This document shows, one piece after another, positions 12,111 through 44,847 of a stretch of 64,000 nt of DNA. Below the pieces are notes generated by a model. That model worked only from the letters and a program-made list of their open reading frames with translations, ran no database searches and had not been told where the DNA came from. This DNA comes from Gimesia aquarii. Its GTDB lineage: Bacteria; Planctomycetota; Planctomycetia; Planctomycetales; Planctomycetaceae. The stretch spans positions 6,779,952 through 6,843,951 of the forward strand of contig NZ_CP037422.1 of assembly GCF_007748175.1 (NCBI RefSeq), in the 5' to 3' direction. Position 1 is the stretch's first letter. Each line of letters begins with the position of its first letter. The position numbers and the translations under genes were made by a program.

Positions 12111-15100
12111 ATGCTGTTAACCAACTGGTTAAAGTCGATTGCCTCCCACTGTCGACCATTCCGCCCCCGTCATCATCGCCATCAACGCTCACGTGTCCTC
12201 AATCGATACCAGCCAGCACTAAGCCGACAGATGATCGGCTGCGAGCACCTCGAAGACCGCACGATGCTGACCTCGGTAATTAGTATTGATGATGTGACCA
12301 TCGAAGAAGATGCAGGATTACCCCTCGTTTACTTCACACTGACGCGGACTGGCATAAATCCAGGAGACCTTAACAGTAGAGTTGAGATTGATTTCACAAC
12401 ACAGGATGAAACAGCAAATGGATACGATGTTGATTACAATTCGGTTACCGGGTCCCTCTCTTTCTCCGCTTCAACCACAGCAACGACACAAACCACGACA
12501 ATGTCTGTCTTGATCCATGATGACTTAGAAGTCGAAGGAAATGAGACCTTTCAATTACTCATTTCCACGACTTCACCTAATACAATCATAGAGAAAAATA
12601 TCGGTATCGCGACCATTATTGATAACGAGGCAGTATCCCTCAGTGTCAGTGATGCAACTGCTTATGAAAATGACACACTATCTTTTGAAATAACACTTAA
12701 CCAGGTTGCCAGTTCAGATATCACTTTTTTAGCGACAACCGTCGCAGGATCCGCAGAAGAAGGTGGATTTTTTGGTGATTACACTTACTTTGAAAACAAG
12801 CTGGTAACGATCAAAGCAGGAGAGATATCGACGACGGTTACAGTTCATCCTCTGGATGATGATGATAAAGAACCGGATGAAACGTTCTCACTGGTAATCA
12901 GCGACCCTAAAATTAACGGCGATTCACTTCCTTCTACGTTGATAATTTCTGATGACACAGGCATGGGAACCATCCTGAATGATGACTACCTGCCAGGCTC
13001 AACCTTCAATATAGAAGGCACAAAGATTATAGAAGGACATGACGGTACAGATTACCTTGAATTCACAATCACTCGCACAGGAGAGTCAGCCGGAGATCTC
13101 AACTTTTTCACACAGGTTTTGTTCAACACAATTGATGGAACAGCGACAGCAGGCGAAGACTATGCTTCGACAGTCCGTGTTCTCGATTTTAATGCCAGTC
13201 CCTCAGCAACCAGACAAAGCCAGACGGTAGAAGTTCCAATTTTCGGTGACACTCATTTCGAAGCGACAGAAACGTTTCTCGGACGTTTAAGCAACGCCAC
13301 AGGGGGAAGCGTACTGAAAGGTAATGGAACGACATTAGACGCTACTGGTGTGATCACCAATGATGAATCGGATTTCAGTTTTCAGCAGGAACTGAAGGCA
13401 GATATTGGATTTGCAAATCATTCTTATGATCACGCAGGCAGGTATTTCGCTATCGATGGAAATGTTCTTGTCATAGGCGTCCCGAACAATATTGGAACTA
13501 CTGACAATGGGCCTGGTTTAGCTTATGTCTACACCAGAAATCAGCATGAAACTCCGGAAGATTCCGCAGACGATACATGGGATTTTCAAACAATCCTACG
13601 ACACGACAATCGGTCAGACTTGGAGTATTTTGGGGCTTCTGTCGCGATCCATGATGATACGATTCTGATTGGTGCCTTCCTTGGTCCCTACGGCGATTCA
13701 AGTCGGATTGTTTATATTTTTTCCAGAGACGGTGATGACTGGGTATCTTCACCCCCGCGCAGAGAATCAATTTTAATCCCTCGCCTGCACTATCATTCAC
13801 GTCAAGCAACTTCACTTATTGCAGTTTATGAAGAGACTATCGTCGTCGGAAATTATGTATTCGAGAAAACGGGAGTAGACTGGTCTGCCCCTGCTATGCG
13901 AAAATTAACTGAAGCCTCGGTTACTTCGGTGACAATACAGGAAAATACTATTGTAATTGGAACAGCATTTGATTCTGAAGAAGGATCACGCGCAGGGGCT
14001 GTCCTGATCTATACAAAAACGGGAAACAACTGGACATCCATCGCGCCTCACGAGGTGAAGCTCACAGCTTCGGATGCTAAACCTAATCTGCACTTTGGAC
14101 AATCAGTAGCACTCAATGGGAATCAGCTGGCAGTCGGTGCCACCAACACCAATACAGGAAGTTATTCTGGTCAGGCTTATATTTTCACACAGAGCGGATC
14201 GGACTGGTCTACTCTTCCCACCACCGAAGTTATTTTTCCTCGTGAACCCTTAACCCAACATTTTGGCGCATCAATCGCCCTGACAGATACGCACCTTGTT
14301 GTTGGAACTTTCCGTGACGTATTTCTGTCATCCTCATCGGAAGTGTATGTCTACACCAAAAACGGGGCAAACTGGGATCCAAGTACGGCATCAAGAACGG
14401 TATTGAATGCACCAGTCAGCGGTAATGTCCTCTTTGGAGAGTCTGTTGCTGTTTCTGGTACCACAATTCTGGCTGGAGCCTCTCGGGTTGACACAGAGAG
14501 CATCGAAAGTGGAATGATCTATGGGTTTGAATTGGATCAAAACGATAGCTATCAACTGATTCATGAAATCAGTCATGCTGTCAGCCAGACGGCACACAAT
14601 GGTGGTGATAGATATGGCCGAAGAATTGTCATAGGCGAAAAATATATGTTGATTGCCGCACCCGGCACTGAAACTGGTTCAGCCAACGGGGTCGTCTATC
14701 TATATGCCAAAGATGATGGAAATACATTGTTTGATTCGACTGATGACAACTGGATTTATGAGACAACTTTCACTGCACCAGATCCTGAATTGACTACTGG
14801 TTTTGGTCACAGTATCGACATTGATGGGAACACGCTTCTGATTGCTGCCCAGATGAAATCAGGTTTCTCTGAAGTCTACTCCTATGAAATGACAGGAGAC
14901 GACTGGTCGACTTTTAGCCCTCAGATTACCCCTTTACTCTCCAGGACTGGTACTTTTATTTCCTGGTATCCTGATGGGGCTCTAAATGCTGAAGATTTTG
15001 TAGCGATTGAAAATGACACCATCCTTGTCAGCGATCCCTTCAGTACCACTGACCCAAGTGAGGCAGGCCAGGTCTACGTATTCACCAGAAATGGTAACGA

Positions 15101-18100
15101 CTGGTCGACTTCATCCCCCACCAGATCAGTTCTGAAGGCTTCGGACACTACGATGAAAAATAATTTCGGATATGCTATTGATATTGATGGAGACAAAATC
15201 ATTGTGGGTGCCTATAGAGACGAATCATATCGCGGCGCTGCTTATCTCTATCTCAAGGGAGAAGATGGCTGGGAAAATGCAGTTGAAATTAAATTAACTG
15301 GATATGATTCTCGAGATGATGATCTTTTCGGGACATCCGTTGCCATTGATGGGAATACTATAGTCATCAGTGCGATTAGAGACAGTGATTCAGGTTTTTT
15401 TTCTGGGTCAATCTATATTTTTGATGGCTCAAAAGGTTGGGATAATCCCAAAGAATATAAAGTCATCCCAGCAAAGATCTATAACCATGATAAATATATT
15501 CGGGTTGCGTCAAACACTCAAGACTTTGGAGGCAGTGTCGATATTGATGGCACCACGATTGTGGTCGGCGCTTCATCAACCAGTCCAGAATCAAATTCCG
15601 TTTATATTTACGACGGTTCTGATGGTTGGGATCAGATTCAGGAATCGCGGATCAATTTACCTGAAGTCTCCGAATTGTATGACAGAGGCTTGGGTTCAAC
15701 AGTCGCCTTTCAGAACAACAATCTGCTCGTGGCACTGCTTGACAAACATTTTAACTCGGATATCTCCCGTGTTTACAGCTACACCAGGCCCCCCGATTAC
15801 AACAATCTAGTTCAATCTGAAACTATTATCCCCCCTGCCCCTACCGCCGACAGCGATCATTTCGGAAACGAAATCGAGGTTGATGGTGACTACATGATTG
15901 TGGCTGCCATCGATAGTGATCTCAGGGCCCCCTCAGCAGGTGCCGTCTATATATATCATCGAAACGATCAAAACACCCCCTACAATGACACTGATGACAC
16001 CTGGGATTATCATTCTACACTGACTCTCCTTGAAGCAGGGGCCGGCGATCAGTTTGGATCCAGTATTTCCATTGATGGTGACACTCTCGTCATTGGTGCC
16101 TACCTGGAAGATGCTTTGGGTAAAGATAGTGGTGCCGCTTACGTCTACCGGCTCAATGGTTCCATCTGGGAATTCGAAGAAAAATTAACGGCATCGGACG
16201 GAGAGCCCAATGACCACTTTGGAAGTTCTGTATCCATCGAAAATGATACTATTATCGTCGGAGCCAGTTTCCGGAACAGTGACTCCCCGTTCGACCGTGA
16301 TGATGGTGCCGTTTATGTCTTTAACAGAAGCGGTAGCAATTGGTCCGAGTCGCAAATTCTAACGGCATCTAATCACGATATACTTGACCGTTTTGGCTCT
16401 TCGGCAGTCATTCACAATGGTACCATCTTCATCTCAGCAGTCGGTGCTAAAGCAGCTGAGTCTCCTGAAGACGCTGGTGCAATCTATATTTTTCATCAAG
16501 CCGCCGGAATCTGGCACGAGGCACAGATTCTCGGACCGCCTGACGGTGAGCATAATGATCTCTTCGGTTCTGATTTGCATGTCGATGGAGATCATCTGGG
16601 GGTTGTCGCCTTTGGTGATGATGACAACAAGGGATCTGCATACCTTTTTGTTAATAATGCAGGAATCTGGGAATTTCAACAAAAGCTAACACCACCGGAA
16701 TCAGATGACGCTGATAGATCTGTCTTTTCGATTCGCATTTCTGGATCCACACTGGTAATTGGATCGCAGTTTAGTGATGGAAAAGAGACCGATTCTGGAG
16801 CCGCTTTCCTTTACAGATTGATTAATGACGAATGGGTTCAATCACAAACACTTTTTGCTGAAGACGGTGTATTTCAAGACTTCTTTGGATATGCGGTTGC
16901 TTTCTCCGATTCAGAAGTGATTGTCGGTGCACCACTCAATGATGAGGCTGGTGACGATATAGGAAAATTCTATGTATTCCGCCCTTTTACTCCTGAAATT
17001 GTTATCAGTGATGTCATTCAAGCTGAAGGAGACGAACCTCACCAAACAGTCTTTACCTTTAACATAGAACGTCGTGGACAGGTAGTCGGCGATTTAAACT
17101 TTGATTCAATGGTCGACTTTACAACCCTGGATTTATCAGCCAAGCTTGCCGATCATGATTATGCTTTTAAATCTGGCACCGTTACATTTCTTGCAGATCC
17201 AGATGCAATCGTACAGACACAAACCATTACTGTCCTCGTCAATGGTGATTATGATTATGAGGGTTCAGAAACCTTTCTCGTTCATCTCACAAACCCTTCT
17301 AGTGGAACCGTTTTAAAAAAATCAGTAGGCCTCGGAATCATCGAGGATGATGATCTTACTGTTCTCAATATTGAAGATATCACCATTGAGGAGAATGCGG
17401 AAACAGCAATCTTAACCGTTTCGCTGGACCAACCCTTATCCAATCAGATTCAAGTTGACTATTCAACTGCCAACCAGTCTGCAATGAGCCCAAGTCACTA
17501 TCTTGCGACTTCAGGAACACTCACTTTTGAACCTGGAGAAACATCAAAAACAATCTCTGTTTCCATCGTAGATAATTCTATTGTAGGGGCTGAAAAATCA
17601 TTTCTGGTTAATCTGACCAATCTTCAAAGCAATGGCCTTGAAGTGATCTTTGAAAACAGTCAAGCCGTAGTCACAATACATGATGATGATCAATCCAGTG
17701 TTTCAATCAACGATGTCACCGTAGATGAAACAGCAGGTACTGCGACTTTAACCGTCTCGTTATCTCAGCCTGTCGAGACTACCGTCAACATTGATTTTTC
17801 CACTATCGACCAATCAGCCAGCAATCCTGACGACTATTTGTCTCAGTCAGGAACACTTAGTTTTACCCCGGGTGAACAGTCCAAAACGATTACCATTTCG
17901 ATTGTAGATACCAACCTGGTAGAGATTGACGAAACATTTCTGGTTAAATTAAGCAACATCCAGGCGAGTGGTGCCAATATTATTTTTACAGATGACCAGG
18001 GCGAAGTCACCATTCAAGATGATGATCGCGCCAATCTCTCTATCAGTGACCTTACGATAAATGAATCTGCAGGAACTGCTTCCATTACTGTAACACTGGA

Positions 18101-21100
18101 CGAGCAAGTCGACACATCTGTCAGTGTCGAATTTGTCACTTCCGATCAGTCAGCTATTGCTCCTGGTGATTATCTACATCAATCGGATACATTAATTTTC
18201 AATCCAGGAGAGTCGTCAAAAACAATTGAAGTTCCCATTGTAAATTCTGACCTCATTGAAAGTGATGAATCGTTCTTCGTCAACTTAAGCAACCTGCAAG
18301 CCAATGGTCGCAGTGTTAACATCACAGATCATCAGGCGGAAATCACAATTCTGGACGATGATCATGCCAAAGTTTCTGTCAATGATGTTTCCATAAACGA
18401 GAATGAGGGAACGGCTACTTTAACAGTATCCTTGGATCAACCGTTATTCGATCAGGTTCAAGTTGACTTTGCCACCATCGACCAGTCTGCATTAAATCCA
18501 GATCATTATTTAGCAACTTCGGGCACACTTATATTCAATGCGGGAGAACAATCAAAAACGATCACCGTTTCTATCATTGATAATGATATTGTAGAGGCTG
18601 AAAAATCATTTCTACTTAAACTGAGCAATCTACAATCAGCAAGCCAGGATGTGCTCTTAGAAGACAGTGAAGCCATAGTCAAAATACACGATGATGATCA
18701 ATCCAGTGTTTCAATCAACGATGTCACCGTAGATGAAACAGCAGGTACTGCGACTTTAACCGTCTCGTTATCTCAGCCTGTTGAGACTACCGTCAACATT
18801 GATTTTTCCACTATCGACCAATCAGCCAGCAATCCTGACGACTATTTGTCTCAGTCAGGAACACTTAGTTTTACCCCGGGTGAACAGTCCAAAACGATTA
18901 CCATTTCGATTGTAGATACCAACCTGGTAGAGATTGACGAAACATTTCTGGTTAAATTAAGCAACATCCAGGCGAGTGGTGCCAATATTATTTTTACAGA
19001 TGACCAGGGCGAAGTCACCATTCAAGATGATGATCGCGCCAATCTCTCTATCAGTGACCTTACGATAAATGAATCTGCAGGAACTGCTTCCATTACTGTA
19101 ACACTGGACGAGCAAGTCGACACATCTGTCAGTGTCGAATTTGTCACTTCCGATCAGTCAGCTATTGCTCCTGGTGATTATCTACATCAATCGGATACAT
19201 TAATTTTCAATCCAGGAGAGTCGTCAAAAACAATTGAAGTTCCCATTGTAAATTCTGACCTCATTGAAAGTGATGAGTCGTTCTTCGTCAACTTAAGCAA
19301 CCTGCAAGCCAATGGTCGCAGTGTTAACATCACAGATCATCAGGCGGAAATCACGATTCTGGACGATGATCATGCCAAAGTTTCTGTCAATGATGTTTCT
19401 GTCGATGAAGCAATTGGAACGGCAACGGTGATTGTGACTCTTGACAAACCTGTTGACACATCTATCAGCATTGATTTTGCCACCGCCGATCAAACAGCTA
19501 TTAATTCAGAAGACTATTTATCACAATCTGGCACCCTGATTTTCAATCCTGGCGAGCAGTCAAAAACCATTACGGTCTCAATTGTGGATACCGACCTCAT
19601 TGAAGCGGATGAAATGTTTTTGATCAGTCTGAGTAACCTTCAGGCTAATGATGTTGATGTCATTGTTGAAGATGATCAATCAGAAGTGACGATCACAGAT
19701 AACGATCAAGCTGGGATCACAATTAATAATCTTTCCATCAATGAATCTGTAGGAACAGCCACCTTAACGGTATCTCTCGACAAACCGGTTGCGACATCCG
19801 TCAGTGTTGACTTTGCTACCGCCAATCAAACAGCCAACAATCCGGATGACTATTTGACACAAACTGGCACCCTTACCTTCAACCCGGGTGAGCAAACAAA
19901 AACTATTGCGATTTCTCTAGTAGATAACGACCTACTGGAAACCGACGAAGCCTTTCTAGTGAATCTTACAAATATCCAGGCAAATGGCGCCGACGTTATT
20001 TTCACAGACAATCAGGCAGAAGTCACGATTGTAGACGACGATGACCCCTTTTTATCAATCAGTGATCTCACAGTAAATGAGACAGAGGGCACGGCTTTCG
20101 TTATTGTTTCTCTAGAGAAGCCCGTTGACACCTCTGTCAGTGTCGACTTTATCACCGCCGATCAGTCCGCCTTAAATTCAATCGACTATCTTTTCCAATC
20201 AGGCACTTTGATTTTCGATCCGGGAGAGCAATCGAAGACGATTGAAATTTCGATTCTTGATAATTCCATTGTCGAAGGACTCGAAACATTTCTAGTCAAT
20301 TTGCGCAATATGCAAACCAGCAGCCCCGATGTGATCCTTGTAGATGATCAAGCAGAAATTACCATCGTCGATGATGATCAGGCCATGTTTTCGATCGACG
20401 ATCTTTCAGTCGATGAAACGGCGGGAACCGCTAAGCTGAAAGTGTCTCTGAATCGCCCGGTTCATACCACAGTCAGTGTTGACTTCTCTACCGCTGACAA
20501 TTCAGCCTCAAACTTCACAGATTATTTATCCCAGGCAGGTACGCTCACGTTTTTCCCAGGGCAGCAGTCAAAATACATCACGATTCCCATTCTGGATTCC
20601 AGTCTTGTGGAAGGCACGGAACAATTTTTCGTAAACCTGACCAACATTCAGGCCAACGGTGCCCAAGTGACTTTTGCAGACGATCAGTCAGAAGTCACGA
20701 TCATGGATGATGATCAAGCCAACTTATCAATCAACGATCTGACTGTGAACGAAGACGTTGGAACGATCACACTCACCGTGTCATTAGACCAACCAGTACA
20801 AACAGCTATCAATTTTGATTTCTCTACCGCTGATCAGTCAGCCTTTGCTCCTAGTGATTATCTCTCGCACTCTGGTACGCTGACCTTCAATGCCGGTGAG
20901 CAAACCAAAACGATTACCATTTCGATCATCGATTCCGATCTGGTGGAACTTGATGAAACGTTTCTGGTGAAACTCTCCAACCTGCAGACGAACGGCGCTG
21001 ATATTCTTCTGATAGATGACCAGGCAGAAGTAACCGTCATAGATGATGACCAAGCCAGGATTACCATCAATGACATTTCAGTTGATGAACATGCCGGCAC

Positions 21101-22691: not shown

Positions 22692-22810
22692 AGTGGCCAA
22701 AACGCCATAAGTAAAGACCGTTACTTCATAAAAACACTCTATTTACAGCTGCGATCTTAATAAAACGATCATTGTATCTGCCCTAAATCGTGTTAATATA
22801 GGTAGCCTTA
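21909..22810 (+). repeat. C-terminal cassette plus downstream spacer, copy 1
   Basis: Starts at the dockerin-like module of giant gene 1, runs through the stop at 22691 and into the spacer to about 22810. It matches 25161-26062 with no gaps (constant offset of 3252 bases) and scattered substitutions, and 30224-31006 within the coding part (offset 8315). Confidence 0.92.
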
Positions 22811-22839
22811 GACCAGCTTTACTTACCATAAACCTACCT

Positions 22840-22854
22840 TATCCCCGCTGGATA
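22840..22854 (+). promoter_or_regulatory. Start-proximal hairpin before giant gene 2
   Basis: TATCC (22840-22844) can pair with GGATA (22850-22854) around a 5-base loop. The GGA is the only ribosome-site-like sequence, about 10 bases before the ATG at 22863. Equivalent hairpins precede giant genes 3 and 4, with the outer pair changed from T-A to A-T in gene 3. Confidence 0.4.
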
Positions 22855-22862
22855 TTAATAAT

Positions 22863-25800
22863 ATGTTTCGATTTCACTGGCTTACCTCTTTACGGAACAA
22901 GCTACGCGCGGACTCTACGAGACACATTCAATCTGAGCGAAAATATGCGCGGCAAAGAAGTTTACGAGTAGCAACTGCTTTCGTTTCCCGAACTGCTGCA
23001 GAAAGGTTAGAAGACCGTACCCTACTGACGGTATTCACGGTTGTGAATACCAACGACTCCGATACCGGTAGTCTCAGAGAAGCAATCGAACAAGCCAATG
23101 CTAGCGCGGGTGCAGACACCATTTCTTTCGATGCCAGTCTCGCCGGTCAGACAATTGTTCTCACGGATGAACTTTTGATTTCCGATGACGTGACCATCAT
23201 AGGACTCGGTGCAAACCAACTCACAATTAGTGGGAACAACAATAATCGCATATTTAATATCGATGACTCAAGCACTGAAACAGAAGTTATCGTCGAATTG
23301 AGTGGACTCTCACTCATAAATGGCCATTCAGATAATGGTGGAGCCATACTCAATTATGAAAACCTCACTATTACAGATAGTATTCTGTCTGGGAACAATG
23401 TAGCAGAACTACAATATGATGACAGCACTGTAAATAATGGAGGTGGCGTTCATAATATTCGAGGTGCTTTGACAATCAACAACTCCACATTTACTAATAA
23501 CTCAGCAAATGATGGTGGTGGAGTTTATAATCGTAACGGCACCGTAACCGTGACGAACAGCACGTTCTCAGAAAATTCAGCGACAACGTCTAGAGGTGAT
23601 GGAGGCGGAATCTATAATTATGATGGCAATTTAATTGTGAATCATTCTACGTTTTCAGAAAACTCAGCGACGAATGGTGCTGGAATTCACTTCAATAGCA
23701 GCTATGTCAACAGTGGCCCTGTTCCTAATTTAGTAATGGATATCACAAACAGCACTTTTTTGAAAAACTCAGCGACAAGCGGTGGCGGAATCTATTTTGA
23801 GTCACCTTATAAAAACGATAGTCATATGGCATCTGTGATGAACAGTACGTTTTCAGAAAATATTGTAAGTGGCAACGGTGCAGGAATACACTTTGATAGC
23901 GGAAAGGCATTTGTGTTTAACAGCACATTTGCAGGAAATATCTCTGATCGAATAGGGGGAGGAATTTCAAACCGTTGGACAACGCTGACGATTAAGAATA
24001 GTTCGTTTAATCAAAACTCCGCGAGACTGTATGGTGGTGGAATCAGTAACGGTGGCTTTTTCTATTATGAAAGTGGGGGAAACCTTTCCCTTATTAACAG
24101 TACGCTTTCAGAAAATAGTTCCAGCAACAATGGCGGTGCTCTCTATAGCAGTCTTGGAATTGTCGAAATTGTAAACAGTACACTTTCAGGTAACAGTGCT
24201 ATTTTTACCGGTGGTGCCATCTACACACGCCGATTTGAAGGGCCAACAGCAGTCAATATCATAAGTAGTACAATCACTGGAAATACTGCGAACTATGTAG
24301 GAGGATTCTATACTAGCTCTACACCATTTAGCATCATTAATAGCATCATCGCTGGTAATCCTACAAATGACTCCAATCCTCAAAACTCTATAAGTATAAC
24401 TCATTCTAATAGCACTACTAGTAGCATCATCCAAGATAGTATCGTAGGATTGCTTGATCCTGTTCTGAGAGACAACGGAGGACCTACCAAAACCCATGCG
24501 TTACTGCCTGGCAGTAACGCCATTAATTCCGGTGATAATTCAGCAATCGTCGACGCTGAAATCGATACCGATCAACGAGGCTCTACTTTTAATCGTATTT
24601 TTGGAGGAGTCGTTGATTTAGGAGCATACGAAGTACAGGTTTTTCATAGCCAGATCGATTTGAAAGTCGTCAATTCCAAGACATCCACATTGAGTAATGG
24701 AGAATCGAACTCGCTCCCGGATAATCTTGGTTGGATTGATGAATGGAGTAGCTACTGGTTAGAAATCTGGATTAGCACACCGTCTACGACAGATTTAGAA
24801 ATTCTGTCAGCTGCATTCAACATGAGTTACAACACCTCGATTACTACAGCCACCAGTATCGAATATGGCGCTGCCTTCACATTAAACCAATCGGGAACAA
24901 TCAATGATGTGACGGGAACTATTCAAAACTTATCAGCGGAGACAGGCCTGTCTGATGTAGGGGATGATCAACATGTACTCTTTGCCCGTATCCGCTTTGA
25001 GTCAACCTCTGACGATGCGGTCAACCTAGATCTGCAAGGGCGAAACCTGAATCCTCAAAGCCCTGAATTTTTGATCGGACAATCAGAGATCGTTTTTACC
25101 GGAAGCTCTCCCATAGAAGAGGCTTATGGCCCTTCACCAGAAACATTAATCTACGCAAACCCTTATGATTTGAACGATGACGATGCAATTAATTTCCGAG
25201 ATCTGATGTTATTCGCCAGTGTCTACAATACGATTCCCAGTGAATCGAGTTCAGATTATTCCTGGTTTGCTGATCTGAATCAAAGTGATCGAGTTAACTT
25301 TAAAGATTTGGTCTTATTTGCCAGTAACTACGGTAAAAGAAAACTTGATCATCCAACGATCGTCTATCCTCAGAATTTTCCTCATGCCTGGAACAATCAA
25401 CTGCTGGTCGATACCACTCAGGGTGAGCCACAGTTGGCACCCGAGACTCTCTCACAATCAACGGCAGACACCGCACTGAATAATGTGGTCGAACATGTCA
25501 GTCCTCAGCTTAACCCCAGCCAGAATGAAACGCTGGAGCAAATTGACATTCAGGTCGTTGACCTCGAAGGCAATACTCTGGGCCGCGCTGTTTCCGGTAC
25601 GATTTATATCGACGCCAACGCCGCGGGATACGGCTGGTTTGTGGACGCGACGCCTGGTGACAATAGCGAGTTCCAAGTAGAAAGTCAGTTATCACTCATC
25701 GCCCTGCCCGAAACTGATGCCGCGGGACACGTTGATCTCTGGTCGGTCATCATGCACGAACTCGGCCATCTGTTGGGATACGAACATGAAGACACAGGGC

Positions 25801-25943
25801 TGATGCAAGACACCCTGCCTCCCGGAGTGCGCAGGCTTCCTGATTGGGAATTGAACATCGATCTGGGAAACAACTCCCTGCCCGAAGAGGCAGACTCCTT
25901 CTTTCTGACTATCCAGGATCAAACAAATTTAGTCCCCTTTTAA
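22863..25943 (+). CDS. Giant surface protein 2: LEDRT motif, CSLREA beta-solenoid, cohesin-like, dockerin-like, metzincin cassette
   Basis: 1026 residues. The basic N-terminus MFRFHWLTSLRNKLR leads to LEDRTLLT (49-56). VNTNDSDTGSLREAIEQANA follows, the CSLREA-type entry motif, then a right-handed beta-solenoid (about 57-595) with many repeats of the form NSTFSENSAT-GGGIYN, as in polymorphic outer-membrane-like proteins. A cohesin-like domain (about 598-745), a dockerin-like pair (about 768-828) and a metzincin motif HELGHLLGYEH (first His 965) follow. The C-terminal cassette is nearly identical in DNA to those of genes 1 and 3, but its last 25 codons resemble gene 4 (DQTNLVPF). Likely secreted and surface-attached; the repeats suggest adhesion. 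Confidence 0.93.
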   Translation: MFRFHWLTSLRNKLRADSTRHIQSERKYARQRSLRVATAFVSRTAAERLEDRTLLTVFTVVNTNDSDTGSLREAIEQANASAGADTISFDASLAGQTIVLTDELLISDDVTIIGLGANQLTISGNNNNRIFNIDDSSTETEVIVELSGLSLINGHSDNGGAILNYENLTITDSILSGNNVAELQYDDSTVNNGGGVHNIRGALTINNSTFTNNSANDGGGVYNRNGTVTVTNSTFSENSATTSRGDGGGIYNYDGNLIVNHSTFSENSATNGAGIHFNSSYVNSGPVPNLVMDITNSTFLKNSATSGGGIYFESPYKNDSHMASVMNSTFSENIVSGNGAGIHFDSGKAFVFNSTFAGNISDRIGGGISNRWTTLTIKNSSFNQNSARLYGGGISNGGFFYYESGGNLSLINSTLSENSSSNNGGALYSSLGIVEIVNSTLSGNSAIFTGGAIYTRRFEGPTAVNIISSTITGNTANYVGGFYTSSTPFSIINSIIAGNPTNDSNPQNSISITHSNSTTSSIIQDSIVGLLDPVLRDNGGPTKTHALLPGSNAINSGDNSAIVDAEIDTDQRGSTFNRIFGGVVDLGAYEVQVFHSQIDLKVVNSKTSTLSNGESNSLPDNLGWIDEWSSYWLEIWISTPSTTDLEILSAAFNMSYNTSITTATSIEYGAAFTLNQSGTINDVTGTIQNLSAETGLSDVGDDQHVLFARIRFESTSDDAVNLDLQGRNLNPQSPEFLIGQSEIVFTGSSPIEEAYGPSPETLIYANPYDLNDDDAINFRDLMLFASVYNTIPSESSSDYSWFADLNQSDRVNFKDLVLFASNYGKRKLDHPTIVYPQNFPHAWNNQLLVDTTQGEPQLAPETLSQSTADTALNNVVEHVSPQLNPSQNETLEQIDIQVVDLEGNTLGRAVSGTIYIDANAAGYGWFVDATPGDNSEFQVESQLSLIALPETDAAGHVDLWSVIMHELGHLLGYEHEDTGLMQDTLPPGVRRLPDWELNIDLGNNSLPEEADSFFLTIQDQTNLVPF

Positions 25944-26062
25944 AGTGGCCAAAACGCCATAAGTAAAGACCATTACTTCATAAAAACACTCTATTTACAG
26001 CTGCGATCGTAATAAAACGATCATTGTATCTGCCCTAAATCGTGTTAGTATAGGTGACCTTA
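25161..26062 (+). repeat. C-terminal cassette plus downstream spacer, copy 2
   Basis: Copy of 21909-22810, including about 119 bases after the stop codon. Non-coding sequence is as well conserved as coding sequence, which indicates recent duplication or conversion rather than selection on the protein alone. Confidence 0.92.
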
Positions 26063-26092
26063 AACCAACCTTATTTACAATATACCTAATCT

Positions 26093-26108
26093 AATCCCCA
26101 ACCGGATT
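26093..26108 (+). promoter_or_regulatory. Start-proximal hairpin before giant gene 3
   Basis: AATCC (26093-26097) can pair with GGATT (26104-26108) around a 6-base loop, 8 bases before the ATG at 26117. Compared with gene 2, the first pair is A-T instead of T-A, a compensatory change. Confidence 0.4.
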
Positions 26109-26116
26109 TTTTTCAT

Positions 26117-29100
26117 ATGTTTCGATTCCGTTGGCTTTCCTCATTGAAGGATAAGCTCCGCATCCCTCACTCCAGAAACCGCAGAAACTGTCGAAAGCAA
26201 AATCGCCGTGTTCAAGCACCTTTCGCACAGGCTTCTGTTTCCAAGTTCGTTACTGAATCATTGGAAGACCGTACGCTATTAACAGCATTCACTGTTGTGA
26301 ATACGAACGACTCTGGAACAGGCAGTCTCAGAGAAGCAATCGAGTTGGCAAATGCCAACGCAGGCGCAGACACCATTACCTTCGATGCCAGCCTCTCTGG
26401 TCAGTCCATTGTTCTTACGAATGAACTTATAATTACTGACGACTTGACCATCACAGGTCTTGGAGCAGATCAACTCACACTTGATGGAAATAAAAACAGC
26501 CGCATTTTTGATATTGATGATGGAAATACCAATACATCGATTTTAGTTGAATTCAGTAGTCTTAATTTAACCAATGGATTTTCAGACTACGGTGGTGCGG
26601 TTCGGAATTCAGAAACTCTTTCAATTGTCGACTCCACTATCACCAAAAATGAAGGACAATTTTTTGGTGGAGGGATTTACACAAAAGAGGGAGACTTATC
26701 TGTTTTCAACTCTACTATAACCGAAAATCAATCATCTCATGGGGGTGGAATCTATAGTAACAATGGCACCTTAATCGTCAAAAACAGCAATGTTTCTAAT
26801 AACGATGTTACAACCTACGGTGGCGGAATTTATTACCAGAATGAATTCGAAATCGCCAATAGTTCTTCGAGCATTTCAGATAGCATATTCTCTGAAAATA
26901 AAGCTGTCAGTGGTGGGGGGATCTATATTTCACCAGGTTCATTAACTGTCTCACAAAGCAATTTTTCTCTCAATGAAGCATCAGACGGTGCTGGGATTTT
27001 TAGTCGTGGCGGCATACTAACAGTTGATGGTTCTACTTTTTCAGAGAATACAGCATCAGACCCTCGCTATTTTGGATCAGGGGGAGGGATTTATAGCACC
27101 TTTTATGGATCCTTGCGAGTTAGTGACAGTCTGTTTTCGGGTAACACGGCAACGAGATTTGGTGGAGGAATCTTTAATACAATAAGCGATGTACATCTCG
27201 TATCCAACTCCACTTTCATCCAAAATTCAGCTAGAAATGGTGGCGGAATCTATAATACCATCGCCACTATGACTGTGATAGATGGAACTTTTATTGAAAA
27301 TGAAGCGACGGCTGATGGAGGAGGGATTCATCATGCCACAAATTCTCACCATCCAGAAATTTATGAAGTTGTCATTTCCCAGAGTCATTTCTCGAAGAAC
27401 CATGCAAAATCGCATGGTGGGGGAATCAATATTGTAAGCGGTATCATGTCGATCTCTGAGAGCACCTTCATCGAAAACTCTGCTATGAATAGCGGTGGAG
27501 GAGTTTACAATAATTTAGCTGCTCTGACTGTTGAAGATAGTACGTTTAACAAAAACACAGCAACAAGGACCGCTGGCGGCATTGGCAATCGGGGAACACT
27601 CTCAATTCTCAGAAGTACGCTCACAGAAAATACAACTGGTATATCAGGAGGCGCTGTTTTTAATAACTCAACCGGTAGGGTAACTATCACCAACACTACG
27701 CTTTCTGGAAACAACTCATCTAATGTGGGTGGTGGCCTATATTCCTACTCTTCCGGCAATTTATCGCTGACGGTCATCAATAGTACCATCGTTCTAAACT
27801 CAGCGACGAACCAGGGTGGCGGGATTTATAGCCATTTTGTGACACCTGCGATTACAAACAGTCTGATCGCTGGAAATATTGCAGACTCTACCCCGGAGGT
27901 TTATGGAAGTCATATCGGCAATTCCAATATCATCCAGGATAGCATTGATGGACTGATTGACCCCATCCTCAGAGACAATGGAGGCCCCACGAAAACCCAT
28001 GCGTTACTGGCTGGTAGTGATGCCATTAATGCAGGTGATAATAATGCTGGCATCAATGCAGGATTGATCACAGACCAACGCAGTTCCTTATTTGAGCGTT
28101 TTAGTGAGAATGCGATTGACATAGGGGCATTTGAATTTCAGGCATTATCACTTGTGGTTGATACAACATCAGACCTTGAGAACAATGACTTCTCACCCGG
28201 TCAACTTTCATTACGAGAAGCACTTAGACTGGCAAACCTGAATCCTAATTTGGACACAATTACCTTTGATGCCACGCTTACCGGTCAGACAATCACCCTT
28301 ACGGAGGAACTATTGATTTCCGATGACCTGACTATAATCGGACTCGGAGCAGATCAACTCACCATTGACGGTAATCAAAATAGCCGCATCTTTTATGTGG
28401 ATGATAATAACTGGAATGCAACGATAAATGTAGAAATCAATGGTCTCACTCTGACAAATGGATACGCTGCTAATGGTGGTGCCATTCACAACAAAGAAAT
28501 TCTTACCATTTCAAACAGCATGATCTCCGAAAATGAAGCCATCAATAACGGCGGCGGGATTCATCATATTAAAGGAACACTGACTGTCACAAACACAACG
28601 TTTACAAAAAATTTATCGATTGATGGTGGTGGGATCTACAATAACTTAGGCACTGTAACTGTTACCAATAGCACATTTTTAGAAAATACAGCCACAACCA
28701 CTCAGGGGCAAGGAGGGGGAATTTTTAGTTCAAATGGTTCATTAGACGTTATTGATAGCACTTTTCTTAGAAATTCAGCTCCAGTTTGGGGAGGAGGAAT
28801 TTTTACTCGTCTGTCTCCACTTATGGTCATGAGGAGCACATTCTCTGAAAACTCTGGGAGCAATGGTGGAGGAGCGATTTACCATAGCCAAAAATCGATG
28901 ATTGTAAAACAGAGTTCTTTTTCTAATAACTTGGCAACTAAGCCTGCAACTAATAGTGACGGAGGCGCAATTGCGAATTATTTTTCGCAGGAAGAGACTG
29001 TCGAAATCACCAATTGCAGTTTTTTAGGGAATTCAGCTGGTTATCGAGGAGGGGCCGTCGCAAATCTTGGTGGAAACATGTTGATTTCGGATTGTTCCTT

Positions 29101-31006
29101 TTCAGAAAACACAGCGAATTACGGAGGTGGAATTTATGCCGGAGAAACAGTAACAGTCCGAAACAGTACAATATCAATCAATAGGGCAACCTTTGGTGGT
29201 GGTGCAGTTTTTAGTGAAGCTGGAATGATCTTGATTATCAATAGCACACTGTCGGGAAATAATGTTACAGGAACAACCGATCGTAATGGTTATGGAGGTG
29301 GGATCTATTATCAAGGTACTCTACCGGTCTTCGTCATTAATAGTACCATTACAGGGAATTCTGCATCACATTTTGGAGGTGGAATTTACAGCCGACAAAA
29401 CTCAGTGACTCTGACGAATAGTATTCTCGCAGGAAATATAGCGCCAGATGATTCACAAATCAATGGAAGCTTTACAAACAACTCCAGCATTGTACAGAAT
29501 AGTATCATAGGATTAATCGACCCCGTTCTGAGAGACAATGGTGGTCTCACCCAAACGCATGCCTTACTGATAGATAGTCCTGCCATTGATGCTGGTGATA
29601 ATGCTGTAGCTAATGACAGTAAGCTCACGACAGACCAACGAGGAACTGGCTTTGATCGTATTATTGGAGGAACAGTTGATCTAGGCGCATACGAAGTACA
29701 AATTTTCCATACCCAGATCGATTTACGAATCGTCAATTCAAAAACTCCCACTCATAACAACGGTGAAAGATCCACACTCCCCGAAAATCTGTCCTGGATA
29801 GATGAATGGAGTGGTTACTGGTTAGAAATCTGGATTAGTACGCCTTCTACAATCGATTTAGGAATTCTATCGGCTGCATTCAATCTGAGTTACAACACTG
29901 CAATTACCACGGCTACTAGAATTGAATATGGTTCAGCATTCACATTGAATCAAACAGGAACGATCAATGATGTGACGGGAACAATTGAAAACTTATCAGC
30001 AGAGACAAGCCAGACCGATGTTAGCGATGATCAATGTGTACTCTTTGCCCGCATTCGATTTGAGTCAACTGACGATGATAACATTGACTTGGATCTTGCC
30101 GGTCAAAGTCTGAATCAGCAAACTCCCGAGTTTGCGATCCACAGTCCAGAAATATTGTTTACCGGAGATGTAGTCAGCGAAGAGATTCATGGCTCCTCAC
30201 CCAATACAAAAATCTACGCAAACCCCTATGATTTAAACGATGACGATGCAATCAATTTCAAAGATCTGATGTTATTCGCCAGCGTCTATAACACGATTCC
30301 CAGTGAATCGAGTTCAGATTATTCCTGGTTTGCTGATCTGAATCAAAGTGATCGAGTTAACTTTAAAGATTTGGTCTTATTTGCCAGTAACTACGGTAAA
30401 AGAAAACTTGATCATCCAACGATCGTCTATCCTCAGAATTTTCCTCATGCCTGGAACAATCAACTGCTGGTCGATACCACTCAGGGTGAGCCACAGTTGG
30501 CACCCGAGACTCTCTCACAATCAACGGCAGACACCGCACTGAATAATGTGGTCGAACATGTCAGTCCTCAGCTTAACCCCAGCCAGAATGAAACGCTGGA
30601 GCAAATTGACATTCAGGTCGTTGACCTCGAAGGCAATACTCTGGGCCGCGCTGTTTCCGGTACGATTTATATCGACGCCAACGCCGCGGGTTACGGCTGG
30701 TTTGTGGACGCGACGCCTGGTGACAATAGCGAGTTCCAAGTAGAAAGTCAGTTATCACTCATCGCCCTGCCCGAAACTGATGCCGCGGGACACGTTGATC
30801 TCTGGTCGGTCATCATGCACGAACTCGGACATCTGTTGGGTTTCGAACATGAAAACGAAGGCCTCATGCAAGACACCCTGCCTCCCGGAGTGCGCAGGCT
30901 TCCCTCTTGGGAATTGAACATCGATCTGGAAGACAACTCCCTGCCCGAAGAGGCAGACTCCTTCTTTCTGACTATCCAGGATGAAACTGAGTTAGTCCCC
31001 TTTTAA
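26117..31006 (+). CDS. Giant surface protein 3: two CSLREA beta-solenoids, cohesin-like, dockerin-like, metzincin cassette
   Basis: 1629 residues. LEDRTLLT is at 49-56. The first CSLREA entry (GTGSLREAIELANANAGADT) starts the first solenoid (about 57-672). A second entry (about 678, with QLSLREALRLANLNPNLDTI) starts another complete solenoid (about 680-1195), so the body is a duplicated module. A cohesin-like domain (about 1199-1345), dockerin-like pair (about 1371-1431) and HELGHLLGFEH (first His 1568) follow. The middle of the cassette matches gene 2, while its last part (FEHENEG, DETELVPF) matches gene 1, a mosaic pattern. Each solenoid closes with a DPILRDNGGPTKTHALL-type end cap typical of choice-of-anchor-Q proteins. 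Presumed secreted adhesin-like protein. Confidence 0.93.
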   Translation: MFRFRWLSSLKDKLRIPHSRNRRNCRKQNRRVQAPFAQASVSKFVTESLEDRTLLTAFTVVNTNDSGTGSLREAIELANANAGADTITFDASLSGQSIVLTNELIITDDLTITGLGADQLTLDGNKNSRIFDIDDGNTNTSILVEFSSLNLTNGFSDYGGAVRNSETLSIVDSTITKNEGQFFGGGIYTKEGDLSVFNSTITENQSSHGGGIYSNNGTLIVKNSNVSNNDVTTYGGGIYYQNEFEIANSSSSISDSIFSENKAVSGGGIYISPGSLTVSQSNFSLNEASDGAGIFSRGGILTVDGSTFSENTASDPRYFGSGGGIYSTFYGSLRVSDSLFSGNTATRFGGGIFNTISDVHLVSNSTFIQNSARNGGGIYNTIATMTVIDGTFIENEATADGGGIHHATNSHHPEIYEVVISQSHFSKNHAKSHGGGINIVSGIMSISESTFIENSAMNSGGGVYNNLAALTVEDSTFNKNTATRTAGGIGNRGTLSILRSTLTENTTGISGGAVFNNSTGRVTITNTTLSGNNSSNVGGGLYSYSSGNLSLTVINSTIVLNSATNQGGGIYSHFVTPAITNSLIAGNIADSTPEVYGSHIGNSNIIQDSIDGLIDPILRDNGGPTKTHALLAGSDAINAGDNNAGINAGLITDQRSSLFERFSENAIDIGAFEFQALSLVVDTTSDLENNDFSPGQLSLREALRLANLNPNLDTITFDATLTGQTITLTEELLISDDLTIIGLGADQLTIDGNQNSRIFYVDDNNWNATINVEINGLTLTNGYAANGGAIHNKEILTISNSMISENEAINNGGGIHHIKGTLTVTNTTFTKNLSIDGGGIYNNLGTVTVTNSTFLENTATTTQGQGGGIFSSNGSLDVIDSTFLRNSAPVWGGGIFTRLSPLMVMRSTFSENSGSNGGGAIYHSQKSMIVKQSSFSNNLATKPATNSDGGAIANYFSQEETVEITNCSFLGNSAGYRGGAVANLGGNMLISDCSFSENTANYGGGIYAGETVTVRNSTISINRATFGGGAVFSEAGMILIINSTLSGNNVTGTTDRNGYGGGIYYQGTLPVFVINSTITGNSASHFGGGIYSRQNSVTLTNSILAGNIAPDDSQINGSFTNNSSIVQNSIIGLIDPVLRDNGGLTQTHALLIDSPAIDAGDNAVANDSKLTTDQRGTGFDRIIGGTVDLGAYEVQIFHTQIDLRIVNSKTPTHNNGERSTLPENLSWIDEWSGYWLEIWISTPSTIDLGILSAAFNLSYNTAITTATRIEYGSAFTLNQTGTINDVTGTIENLSAETSQTDVSDDQCVLFARIRFESTDDDNIDLDLAGQSLNQQTPEFAIHSPEILFTGDVVSEEIHGSSPNTKIYANPYDLNDDDAINFKDLMLFASVYNTIPSESSSDYSWFADLNQSDRVNFKDLVLFASNYGKRKLDHPTIVYPQNFPHAWNNQLLVDTTQGEPQLAPETLSQSTADTALNNVVEHVSPQLNPSQNETLEQIDIQVVDLEGNTLGRAVSGTIYIDANAAGYGWFVDATPGDNSEFQVESQLSLIALPETDAAGHVDLWSVIMHELGHLLGFEHENEGLMQDTLPPGVRRLPSWELNIDLEDNSLPEEADSFFLTIQDETELVPF
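30224..31006 (+). repeat. C-terminal cassette, copy 3
   Basis: Aligns gap-free to 25161-25943 (offset 5063). Here the similarity ends shortly after the stop codon; the spacer before gene 4 is different. Confidence 0.9.
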
Positions 31007-31193
31007 AGTGATCAAAACGTCACAAGTCTTTTGACTCGTGCATATAGAGGTTTCTACGAAGAAAAAGTTCCCATCACTGTAATCACATTCTTTACCCCAC
31101 AAAAACCCGGTGTTTTCATTGGTTCATGATTGCTATTAGTCCACACCGAGGTAGTATATATATTCGAAAATTTCTTGACAAAAGACCTACCCG

Positions 31194-31206
31194 ATCCCCA
31201 CCGGAT
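31194..31206 (+). promoter_or_regulatory. Start-proximal hairpin before giant gene 4
   Basis: ATCC (31194-31197) can pair with GGAT (31203-31206) around a 5-base loop, 9 bases before the ATG at 31216. An ACCTAC box just upstream (31186-31192) is also shared with gene 2 (ACCTAC) and gene 3 (ACCTAA), although the rest of the spacer is unrelated. Confidence 0.38.
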
Positions 31207-31215
31207 ATTTCCCAT

Positions 31216-34200
31216 ATGTTTCAATTCAACTGGCTTACTTCTTTGTCAAACAGGCTACGCGCTGGCTCTACCAGACGCATTAAATCACAGCGAAAACATT
31301 CTCGGCTGCGAAGCTTCCGAGAAGCAACCGCTTTCGTTTCCCGAACTGCTGCAGAAAGGTTAGAAGACCGTACCCTATTAACGGTATTCACGGTTGTGAA
31401 TACCAACGACTCCGGTACCGGCAGTCTTAGAGAAGCAATCGAGTTGGCAAACGTGAATGTCGGCGCGGACACTATTTCGTTCGACGCCGCGCTTGCTGGT
31501 CAGACAATTATTCTTGATAGTGAGCTGCTGATTTCCGATGACCTGACGATTAATGGTCTTGGCGCAGATCAACTCACTCTTGATGCTAGTGGCGATAACC
31601 GCATCTTCAATATCAATGATGGAGACGCGGAGACAACCATCAATGTTGATATCAGTGGTCTCACAATGACAAACGGCTATGCCGAGAATGGTGGTGCGAT
31701 CCTCAACCATGAAAACCTTTCGGTTTTTAGCAGCACAATCTCAAAAAATAAGGCCCTTAAAAACGGTGGAGGGATCTATCATGCAGCTGGCTTGTTGACG
31801 ATTAACGAAACTACATTCGCTGAAAACCTAGCAAATGAAAGTGGCGGTGGAATTTATAATTCCACTCAGGATTTAGTTGTTTCGAAGAGTACCTTCTACC
31901 GAAACGTTGCTACAAAAGACGGAGGTGGCATCTATACTCTGCAAGGAGTCTCCAAGTATAAACTCCGCGAACAACCTGAACCACAAATTAGGTACCGGAT
32001 TATACCACGCGGTGGAGACATATCTTTACCAACATATGAAATAGTAGAAGTAATAGTCTTACCTGTATTTCTTCCAAAGTATGACTTAGAATTTAACTCG
32101 ATCACAATCACAGACACCAGCTTCACTGAGAATTCTGCGATGAATGGAGGGGGTTTATTCAGTAATTATACAAAAGGCCCCAGTCCATGGTGGATTGACG
32201 TTATCTTGTATTCATCAATTACAAATGAGAATTCCGAGAGAATAAAATCGGAATTCACAATTGTCGATAGTGCTTTTACTGGTAATACTGCAGTAGATGA
32301 TGGAGGTGGAATTTTTAATTTAAGTGGTTTGCTGGAAATAAGAAACAGTTCCATTTCGAATAACTCAGCAGTTCGTTCAGGTGGAGGAATCAAAAATCAT
32401 GACCGCCTCACAATTAAGGAGAGCACCGTTTCAGATAATATTGCAGGCTCTAAAGGTGGTGGAATTTCCAATTACCACAATCTTTATATTGAGAAGAGTA
32501 CTATCTCAAACAATACAGCTTTGGTGGGAGGAGGCATTGAGGTCCGTTTAGGCAGTTTAACGTTTAAGCATAGCACGCTGAATAACAATATTGCGACATC
32601 TAATGGTGGCGGAATTTATAGCCTTGATGGTAATGTCTCTATCAAGAATAGTACAATCTCAAAGAATCATGCTGGTGGTTTGGGAGGTGGCATATACAGC
32701 TCCGATTATTTTATTAGCGATACAGTAATTCATAATCCTTCTATCGAAGAACATGCCAACCCAGCAACCACAAATGAGGTTGGCTCGCCTGAACTTAATC
32801 CTCTTATATCTACAACTTCCACTTTAGTAGCACATCCCATAAATAAATTGGAAATCACGAACAGTACCATTACAGGAAATTCAGCAGAACAGTCAGGGGG
32901 GGGCATCGTTGATTCTCGGCAAGGGAGATACTCCGAAGAAACTACTATCACCAACAGTATCGTGGCGGGAAATACTGCAGCGACATTCCCTCAAATCGAA
33001 GGTAATTATATAGGCAACACCAATATAATTCAGGACAGTATTGATGGATTACTCGACCCCGTTCTCAGAGACAACGGTGGTCCCAGTAAGACCCATACAT
33101 TACTGGCTGGTAGCGCGGCCATCAATGCTGGTGATAATGACGCTGCTAATGCTGCTGGTTTAACCAATGATCAACGCGGAACTGGCTCTGCCCGAATTAT
33201 TGATGGCACAGTCGATATCGGTGCGTTTGAAGTTCAGGCTCCATTCACACAAATTGATTTGCGGGTCGTCAATTCTAAAACTCCGACCTCAGTCAATGGT
33301 GAGAGAACTTCACTCCCCGAAAACCTGACGTGGATTGATGAGTGGGGCAATTACTGGGTCGAAATTTGGATCAGCTCGCCATCAACGACGGATCTTGGAA
33401 TTTTCTCAGCGAATCTCAATTTCACTTATAATACCGATATTACAACCGCTACCTCTATCGAATATGGTGCTGCCTTCACAGAGAATCAGACAGGCACCAT
33501 TAATGATCTGAGTGGAACCATTGAAAATTTGTCTGCAGAGACCAGCACGACCGATGTGGGTGATGATCAGTATTTGCTCTTTGCTCGCATTAAATTTGAA
33601 TCTACCTCAAACGATGCGATTGACTTGAATCTACAAGGACAGGGCCTAAATTCGCAAAGCCCTGACTTTTTGGTGAAAAACTCAGAAATCCGTTTTGTGG
33701 GAGATTTTCCCAGTGAAGAGCTACACGGTCCCTCACCCACCACACAAATCTGGGCCAATCCCTTTGATATAAACGATGACGACAAGATCAACTTTCGCGA
33801 TCTAATACTTTTTGTCAGTACCTACAATTCTATCACCAGCGAGTCGAGTTCAAACTTTTCCTGGCTAACGGATCTGGACAATAATAATCGTGTCAACTTC
33901 AAAGATTTATTTTTGTTTGCCAGAAACTATGGCAAGAGCAAACTCGATCAATCAGCCATAGTTTATCCACAATTTTTTCACGAATATTGGATCGATTTAT
34001 TAAACGAAAATACTCAGACTGGGCCGTTACTAATTCCTGTCACAGTAATCACCGTAGATAAAACGATAGACAGTCCAAATGAACATCTCGATCCGCAGGT
34101 CGTCGATTTAGAAGGCGATACCATAAGTCCTGTCGTTCTCGGTACCATTCGTATCGACATCAACTCTAGCAATCAAAACTCGTTTGTGGAGTCCACGATA

Positions 34201-34473
34201 GACGAGCAAAGTATTTTTGATCGATCAAGTCAGTTATCACTCATTGAATTATCTGATCCCGATCAAGATGACAGTCAGTTGAACTTCTGGTCTGCTATTG
34301 ATTACGAACTCCGCCATGAAGACGAAGGAGTGGTGGAAAATCCCCTGTCTCCAAAAGTTCGCAGGCATCTCTCCGGGAAATTAAACATCGACCTGGAAGA
34401 CAACTCCCTACCCGAAGAACCAGACTCCTTCTTTCTGACTATCCAGGATCAAACAAATTTAGTGCCCTTTTAA
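31216..34473 (+). CDS. Giant surface protein 4: CSLREA beta-solenoid with degenerate C-terminal cassette
   Basis: The start is placed at the ATG at 31216, which aligns with the starts of genes 2 and 3 (MFQFNWLTSLSNRLR); an in-frame ATG 30 codons upstream has no such support. That gives 1085 residues. LEDRTLLT is at 49-56, then CSLREA entry, a solenoid (to about 675), a cohesin-like domain (about 677-825) and a dockerin-like pair (from about 850, DINDDDKINFRDLILF and NRVNFKDLFLFARNYG). The expected zinc motif is replaced by YELRHEDEG, so no HExxHxxGxxH remains, but the final tail (NSLPEEPDSFFLTIQDQT) is kept. Three non-repeat insertions interrupt the solenoid, one at about residues 246-295. 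It could be a diverging, non-proteolytic paralogue. Confidence 0.9.
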   Translation: MFQFNWLTSLSNRLRAGSTRRIKSQRKHSRLRSFREATAFVSRTAAERLEDRTLLTVFTVVNTNDSGTGSLREAIELANVNVGADTISFDAALAGQTIILDSELLISDDLTINGLGADQLTLDASGDNRIFNINDGDAETTINVDISGLTMTNGYAENGGAILNHENLSVFSSTISKNKALKNGGGIYHAAGLLTINETTFAENLANESGGGIYNSTQDLVVSKSTFYRNVATKDGGGIYTLQGVSKYKLREQPEPQIRYRIIPRGGDISLPTYEIVEVIVLPVFLPKYDLEFNSITITDTSFTENSAMNGGGLFSNYTKGPSPWWIDVILYSSITNENSERIKSEFTIVDSAFTGNTAVDDGGGIFNLSGLLEIRNSSISNNSAVRSGGGIKNHDRLTIKESTVSDNIAGSKGGGISNYHNLYIEKSTISNNTALVGGGIEVRLGSLTFKHSTLNNNIATSNGGGIYSLDGNVSIKNSTISKNHAGGLGGGIYSSDYFISDTVIHNPSIEEHANPATTNEVGSPELNPLISTTSTLVAHPINKLEITNSTITGNSAEQSGGGIVDSRQGRYSEETTITNSIVAGNTAATFPQIEGNYIGNTNIIQDSIDGLLDPVLRDNGGPSKTHTLLAGSAAINAGDNDAANAAGLTNDQRGTGSARIIDGTVDIGAFEVQAPFTQIDLRVVNSKTPTSVNGERTSLPENLTWIDEWGNYWVEIWISSPSTTDLGIFSANLNFTYNTDITTATSIEYGAAFTENQTGTINDLSGTIENLSAETSTTDVGDDQYLLFARIKFESTSNDAIDLNLQGQGLNSQSPDFLVKNSEIRFVGDFPSEELHGPSPTTQIWANPFDINDDDKINFRDLILFVSTYNSITSESSSNFSWLTDLDNNNRVNFKDLFLFARNYGKSKLDQSAIVYPQFFHEYWIDLLNENTQTGPLLIPVTVITVDKTIDSPNEHLDPQVVDLEGDTISPVVLGTIRIDINSSNQNSFVESTIDEQSIFDRSSQLSLIELSDPDQDDSQLNFWSAIDYELRHEDEGVVENPLSPKVRRHLSGKLNIDLEDNSLPEEPDSFFLTIQDQTNLVPF

Positions 34474-44237: not shown

Positions 44238-44847
44238 GATGGGACTCCATTCCATTAACGGGGAGAAGTTCGCTCTCTTCCACAGAGAGCTTTGCGCGGG
44301 AGTGTACCATTTATGCAGTCAGGGGGTCAATTGGACTTGACGCCCACTAAGATATAAGTTCGCCGCGGCTTGATCACTAGTCAGGCACCAAGTGGTATCC
44401 CACCAAGTCGTACCTTTTGCCAAATGTGCGATTTAACCAAAGTTTCCTCAAAACTTGATCGAACTATTGATGCAGTTAACAGAGACGTCTCAATTGGTTC
44501 ATGAACATCACTTAAATTCTGGAGCAAAAACGCAGCCGAACAAGACAATGGGATCACTTTAGCAACGCACTGAAATACCCAAACAGTGACCTTCCTCAGA
44601 TAAACGGTGCCATGCCTTGTACGATTCTATTGTCGTAGAACACTTTGAATTGATTTCATTGGTAAATCTGCTAAAGGACGTACTAAAAGAAACTGAAGAG
44701 TGAACGTGGTCGACTCTCCGCGCAGAGCTGTTATGCCTGGCGCGGCTGTAATTTGCTTGACAACTCGTCTCTGGTCAAATAAGGTTCCATCAATTCTGCC
44801 CTTAATGGGTGATACCGAAATAATTCAGTCTAACTCAAGTTGCATGG
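44238..44847. other. Intergenic region with hairpin in the secretin-gene leader
   Basis: About 600 bases with no gene. A perfect 7-base inverted repeat (44272-44278 and 44284-44290) with a 5-base loop lies about 35 bases before the start of the secretin-domain gene, in its probable 5' leader. It is not followed by a T run on that strand. The rest shows nothing I can name. Confidence 0.4.

Follow-up and report, generated by a model that had tools for sequence, protein, structure and literature searches.

The window analysed here is a stretch of 64,000 nucleotides, bases 6779952-6843951 of the complete 7.22 Mb genome of Gimesia aquarii. Positions 12111-34473 of its forward strand hold four tandem genes, A to D, with all frames open and no internal stop. 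Gene A (12111..22691) codes for 3526 aa, consisting of a leader, a body of Calx-beta and FG-GAP repeats, a cohesin, a dockerin, a metzincin and a tail. Gene B (22863..25943, 1026 aa) has the same modules around one CSLREA/beta-helix body, and gene C (26117..31006, 1629 aa) has a doubled CSLREA/beta-helix body and a C-terminus as in A and B. Gene D (31126..34473, at most 1115 aa) has a leader, a CSLREA/beta-helix body, a cohesin, a divergent dockerin, a degraded metzincin and an intact tail. The true start of D is probably an internal methionine at about 31216 and not 31126, since the sequence MFQFNWL... found there is homologous to the starts of B and C.

The leader of A (12111..12272) ends in LEDRTMLT and those of B, C and D in LEDRTLLT. 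The stretches preceding this motif have a net charge of +8 to +10 in all four proteins, so the basic leaders reported in the preliminary description of this DNA are borne out, and so are the bodies that it listed, Calx-beta plus FG-GAP in one protein and CSLREA in three, one of them doubled. Pfam finds 16 Calx-beta stretches and about 14-19 FG-GAP units in A (14 with FG-GAP_2). Its matches in B, C and D are to Chlam_PMP/beta-helix and choice-of-anchor Q, the body of C being two solenoid units. Each Calx-beta unit of A spans 336 bp, and window positions 17635-17934 and 18643-18942 are 96% identical while others are at about 60-65%. Together with a repeated block of units in the protein, this suggests a recent duplication within the repeat array.

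The C-terminal cassette of B, 434 residues, was folded with 26 sequences (pLDDT 81). Residues 1-174 of the model match cohesins (VIA Z 13.6, rmsd 2.7 over 135 residues to 2vo8), and the top rows of the comparison are nearly all cohesins. By its modelled jelly-roll fold the first module is thus a cohesin, found at 21396..21896 in A and at 24639..25148 in B, although the Pfam family PF00963 (Cohesin) gave no match in the four proteins at E 0.1. The 65 residues that follow (21897..22091 in A, 25149..25343 in B, 30212..30406 in C) carry two calcium loops, DLNDDDAINFRD and DLNQSDRVNFKD, both of which fit D-x-N-x-(D/S)-x6-D, and are helical in the AF model. Their profile matches the solved dockerin 2y3n_B (E 1.1e-7), and the PF00404 scores, 17.7-20.7 bits in A to C and 16 in D, lie under the Pfam gathering cut-off of 22.9. 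Loops, helices and profile identify the module as type-I-dockerin-like, with cohesin binding as its putative function.

Scanning of the four proteins showed one cohesin in each and no glycoside hydrolase, which does not fit a cellulosome. A closer parallel is the 'planctosome' proposed for freshwater Planctomycetes, in which cohesin and dockerin modules are joined with peptidases (PMC6461901). There too, cohesin and dockerin modules of planctomycete proteins, putatively exported in the present case, go together with a metallopeptidase and show no connection with cellulose breakdown. In the planctosome, however, scaffold, adaptor and M12B/M14 peptidases are separate proteins (PMC6461901), whereas here cohesin, dockerin and metzincin share a single chain with an exchangeable body ahead of them, and the genes form tandem arrays with recombining ends.

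The shared end called a tail module in the preliminary description is real, but it also contains a domain that was not named there. This domain is a metzincin of the matrix metalloprotease (MMP) type, with a predicted zinc-protease activity. It lies at 22191..22586 in A, 25443..25838 in B and 30506..30901 in C, and carries the motif HELGHLLGFEH (22503-22535 in A, 30818-30850 in C) or HELGHLLGYEH (25755-25787 in B) with a Met downstream. The profile matches karilysin (E 5e-4). The Pfam matrixin model, with a cut-off of 24 bits, gave 22.7, 20.3 and 20.7 bits for A, B and C in hmmscan, and 24.4, 22.3 and 24.9 bits in a scan of the genome. With the whole cassette as query, Foldseek returned mainly cohesins, and the metzincin of B was therefore folded alone (pLDDT 83). 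The model matched the catalytic domain of MMP-11 (VIA Z 9.0, 111 residues, rmsd 2.9), and 49 of the 50 VIA rows listed were MMPs, the remaining one being snapalysin. The structure prediction suggested earlier has thus given two recognisable folds, cohesin and MMP-like metzincin. Foldseek on the metzincin model found no match under E 0.001 (best E 0.07), and the assignment was made from motif, profile and VIA Z jointly. The domain resembles matrixins and karilysin (MEROPS M10A; PF00413) in its HExxHxxGxxH motif, downstream Met and modelled catalytic fold. Unlike them, it is a short module at the very end of a giant protein, and it is only about 20-25% identical to them; Pfam found no MMP propeptide or hemopexin domain in the four proteins.

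A comparison of 62 full cassettes from the genus showed how strongly this region is constrained. The three zinc-binding His are kept in 61, 61 and 62 of them, and the catalytic Glu in 60, with Asp in the other two. The Met expected of a Met-turn follows the third His in 57/62, as judged from the sequence. The tail, at 22587..22688 in A (with the motif D-S-F-F), 25839..25940 in B (EEADSFFLTIQDQTNLVPF) and 30902..31003 in C, has D-x-[FY]-F at 15-17 residues from the end in all 62 cassettes, as compared to none of 23 other ORFs. Gene D is different. Its cassette is only 61% identical to the others, and the zinc motif of its metzincin (34036..34368) is destroyed, reading YEL------RHE. The C-terminal block said to be common to the four genes is therefore common to A, B and C, and is shared only partly by D. 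The dead domain of D, the two cassettes with Asp for Glu and the five lacking the Met suggest that the activity may be dispensable in places.

These observations bear on two other explanations of the shared end. One is that the proteins are secreted multi-modular proteases with the metzincin as the working part, the cohesin, dockerin and bodies serving to target the substrate and to assemble the complex, as in the planctosome. The near-invariant active site and the MMP-like fold of the model agree with this, as does the cohesin/dockerin-peptidase complex already proposed for freshwater planctomycetes (PMC6461901). On the other hand, the metzincin makes up little of proteins that are 1000-5800 aa long, and D has lost the active site but retained body and tail. 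We regard this explanation as quite possible but short of probable. The second is that the metzincin-like module is a non-enzymatic sorting or anchor domain of structural function, and the conserved tail the real signal. The tail motif at residue -16 plus or minus 1 in 62/62 cassettes would then be expected, as would its retention in D after the loss of the active site, and related variants have a long insert ahead of the third His. Structure alone would however not require the active-site residues to be among the most conserved of the domain in the 62 copies, and this explanation is improbable. To see the tail module as an anchor only, or as an unknown domain, is likewise less likely given the conserved zinc ligands and the MMP fold.

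It was also possible to observe variant cassettes with the motif HEIGHxxGF, at loci L077, L080 and L083-L087 and in this genome at 4601716-4608714 and 2157801-2173049. They have about 50 extra residues ahead of a possible third His, a spacing like that of leishmanolysin (M8), and sit in larger proteins with a D-x-x-F-x-x-W-like tail. Metzincins without cohesin and dockerin were seen in giant ORFs at G000:6184153-6184629, G227:4154885 and G048:4080332 and at several places in genome G167, where the lone copies have nearly equal scores.

The idea that the cassette is restricted to this locus could be rejected. There are 13 copies in this genome, including a second tandem cluster at 5388663-5406083, and other species have it as well. 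All nine genomes sampled from the genus carry it, with 7-19 copies each, and the closest named matches are mainly Gimesia metagenome bins. In a sample of the phylum, matches were found in 27 of 392 genomes, in 23 of the 217 most complete ones, and in 14 of 266 genera. The bodies joined to it range from none recognised up to 28 Calx-beta, 40 FG-GAP or 5 beta-helix units. In three genomes from another family of the same class (G333, G389 and G377; loci L187-L192), a pair of cassette genes is found about 11 kb apart, one of about 2900 aa and one of 1150-1200 aa. The long gene has the LE.R.LL leader in all three, and the short gene has it where its leader could be seen (G377).

Leaders of the LE.R.LL or 'LEPR-XLL' type occur at the N-terminus of large planctomycete proteins. 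The leaders of the present family are similar, a basic N-terminus ending in LEDRTLLT on giant repeat proteins, and no NCBIfam model matches them at E up to 10. The pattern LE.R.[LM][LM] was found near the N-terminus of 68 of the 73 ORFs collected, and LE.R.LL in 58 of the 63 with a near-complete cassette, the other five having a 5' end that is masked, cut or disrupted. The search of planctomycete genomes proposed in the preliminary description has thus given dozens of proteins in other species, and the block is neither confined to this array nor attached to unrelated N-termini lacking a leader. The leader is also present on other giant proteins without the cassette, which suggests that the C-terminal fitting is not needed for the putative export.

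From dockerin to tail, the DNA of A, B and C is 91-100% identical, far above chance. Between A and B the identity is 98% in the dockerin, 98% in the linker, 97% in the metzincin and 94% in the tail, and 107 of 113 four-fold sites from dockerin to tail are equal. The cohesin behaves in the opposite way, with A 96% identical in DNA to its ortholog A' in the nearest species (G048) and only 49% to B, while the metzincins of A and A' are only 87% identical (39 of 56 four-fold sites equal). In the second cluster of G048 the metzincins follow the same pattern, with 94% between neighbours (E'-F') and 84% between orthologs (F-F'). The edge is sharp. Before the point in the dockerin start at 21903 in A and 25155 in B there are 40 mismatches in 60 positions, after it 1 in 60, and the homogenised tract continues into the 3' intergenic DNA (21903..22803 in A, about 22803 being its end; partner 25155-26055). 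The homogenised unit thus starts at the dockerin and leaves out the cohesin.

Phylogenetic trees gave the same division. In the cohesin tree (47 rows) the body type changes only once, which shows that cohesin and body are inherited together, and the genome labels are scattered (46 changes, the random level). The cohesin of A is of a Calx-type subfamily and that of B of a beta-helix type. In the metzincin tree, built from few columns (116), the genomes cluster (39 changes, as low in 1 of 200 shuffles) and the body type changes 7 times, or 6 without D. That body type arose only once is rejected by an AU test, both for the whole unit (p 0.002) and for the metzincin (p 9e-54, an extreme value to be read only as a clear rejection). 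These comparisons indicate that the unit of dockerin, metzincin and tail has been homogenised within genomes and has passed from one body type to another at least 6 times. A cassette exchanged in its entirety was claimed before. The claim holds from the dockerin to the tail, but identities, trees, AU test and the edge at the dockerin start reject the cohesin as part of the exchanged unit, it stays with the body. At the C-terminus the process seen is homogenisation rather than diversification, and the diversifying surface system suggested earlier is conjectural.

One clean body swap was found. Two related species, G227 and G344, have proteins with identical leaders (48/48 residues) and about 98% identical dockerin DNA, but unrelated bodies and cohesins, Calx/FG-GAP in one and beta-helix in the other. 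About 400 bp of the leader region are about 91% identical overall and near 100% beside the leader. This is best read as a natural swap, either by replacement of the body or by conversion of both ends, the product being the same. Trees, edges and this swap support the modular layout of a variable body between constant ends. Most orthologous pairs keep the same body, which implies that bodies are seldom swapped over the time in which species diverge. The number of genes changes as well; the syntenic locus in G048 has two genes as compared to four here, between a sulfatase (91% identical) and an enolase-family protein (98.6%).

The main rival on why the ends are alike is neutral concerted evolution only, where ordinary tandem paralogs undergo unequal crossing-over and gene conversion, and the exchange of bodies is accidental without adaptive diversification. 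Homogenisation is strongest among neighbouring genes and can be neutral in tandem repeats, and most orthologs keep their body. The edge also falls where homology fails, because the cohesins of A and B belong to different subfamilies (49%). Against this, two genes in one genome (G291_2554016 and G291_4136596) lie 1.6 Mb apart and code for proteins of different length whose cohesin and metzincin segments are identical, which shows that the exchange is not limited to neighbours. The strong constraint on the zinc ligands and the D-x-[FY]-F tail and the exchange across body types at least six times also speak against it, and we find it rather unlikely that neutral processes are the whole explanation.

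Similar arrangements are known from other bacteria. Gingipains and HagA of Porphyromonas gingivalis are protease-adhesin surface proteins with near-identical modules across paralogs, rearranged by recombination (PMC5266723). Their modules, a cysteine protease and CAD adhesin domains, are unrelated to those of Gimesia, and the shared part is the adhesin modules, whereas here the dockerin and metzincin are shared and the adhesin-like body varies. The Giant1-5 cluster of Apilactobacillus kunkeei (PMC12863079) also has neighbouring giant proteins with beta-solenoids, related C-termini and recombination. Those extracellular proteins have Firmicute SH3b cell-wall ends, recombine mostly between alleles of different strains, and lack cohesin, dockerin and metzincin. 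Cohesin/dockerin-peptidase links, module-sharing protease-adhesins and rows of giant proteins are in our judgement known already, and are here combined in arrays of one-chain, body-exchanging genes. In the literature covered, no paper joins Gimesia and dockerin or describes this composition in Gimesia.

The flanks of the array, compared with those in the nearest species and in five further genomes of the genus, showed no conserved secretion or sorting partner; only three neighbours from the window also flank the array of the nearest species, and none has a clear ortholog in the five. The nearest candidate secretion gene, for a type II/III secretin-like protein (43242-44255, reverse strand), lies about 9 kb downstream. 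A TPR protein adjoining the array (7727-11497, reverse strand) and its ortholog in the nearest species are only 71% identical, compared with 91% for the adjacent sulfatase. A leucine-rich-repeat gene (35319-36668, reverse strand) is split by one in-frame stop into ORFs 35319-36101 and 36159-36668, and is probably a recent pseudogene.

We consider it rather likely that the four genes belong to a family of exported modular proteins with a fixed leader, an exchangeable body with its matching cohesin, and a fixed fitting of dockerin, metzincin and D-x-[FY]-F tail, with docking and protease roles. The comparisons of sequences show constant ends, a linkage of body and cohesin and an active site under constraint; they also show recombination at module edges and arrays that differ in copy number. 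The tandem genes offer direct repeats, made up of the fitting, the intergenic DNA and the leader of the next gene. As the comparisons show, homologous recombination between them keeps the ends alike, adds or removes genes and pairs bodies with new ends. After export, the body may bind an external polymer or surface, which would place it on display at the cell surface. The common dockerin and the cohesins may link the members with one another or with a single docking site by means of calcium, and the zinc protease may trim the proteins of the family or digest protein at the binding site. With an identical fitting, every body could use the same machinery for export, docking and processing, and a common fitting for one such route is the most economical reading. 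A more far-reaching possibility, which we find doubtful and put forward tentatively, is a display in which body and cohesin are exchanged between the constant ends, one machinery reads the D-x-[FY]-F tail, and the binding of the cell diversifies, perhaps adaptively. The constant leader and fitting would then imply that all members are exported, docked and protease-processed in common.

Planctomycetes have numerous giant proteins, few of them with an assigned function. A family of them can now be defined by its named ends, and it offers an intact metalloprotease active site, a candidate signal at the C-terminus and documented re-pairing of bodies and ends. The sharp edges are ready domain boundaries for expression, and the role of the constant ends in export, docking and processing becomes testable. 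It also becomes testable whether bacteria other than pathogens swap bodies to alter their surface binding. If the display by body exchange is true, the bodies would diversify what the cell binds, through one common machinery.
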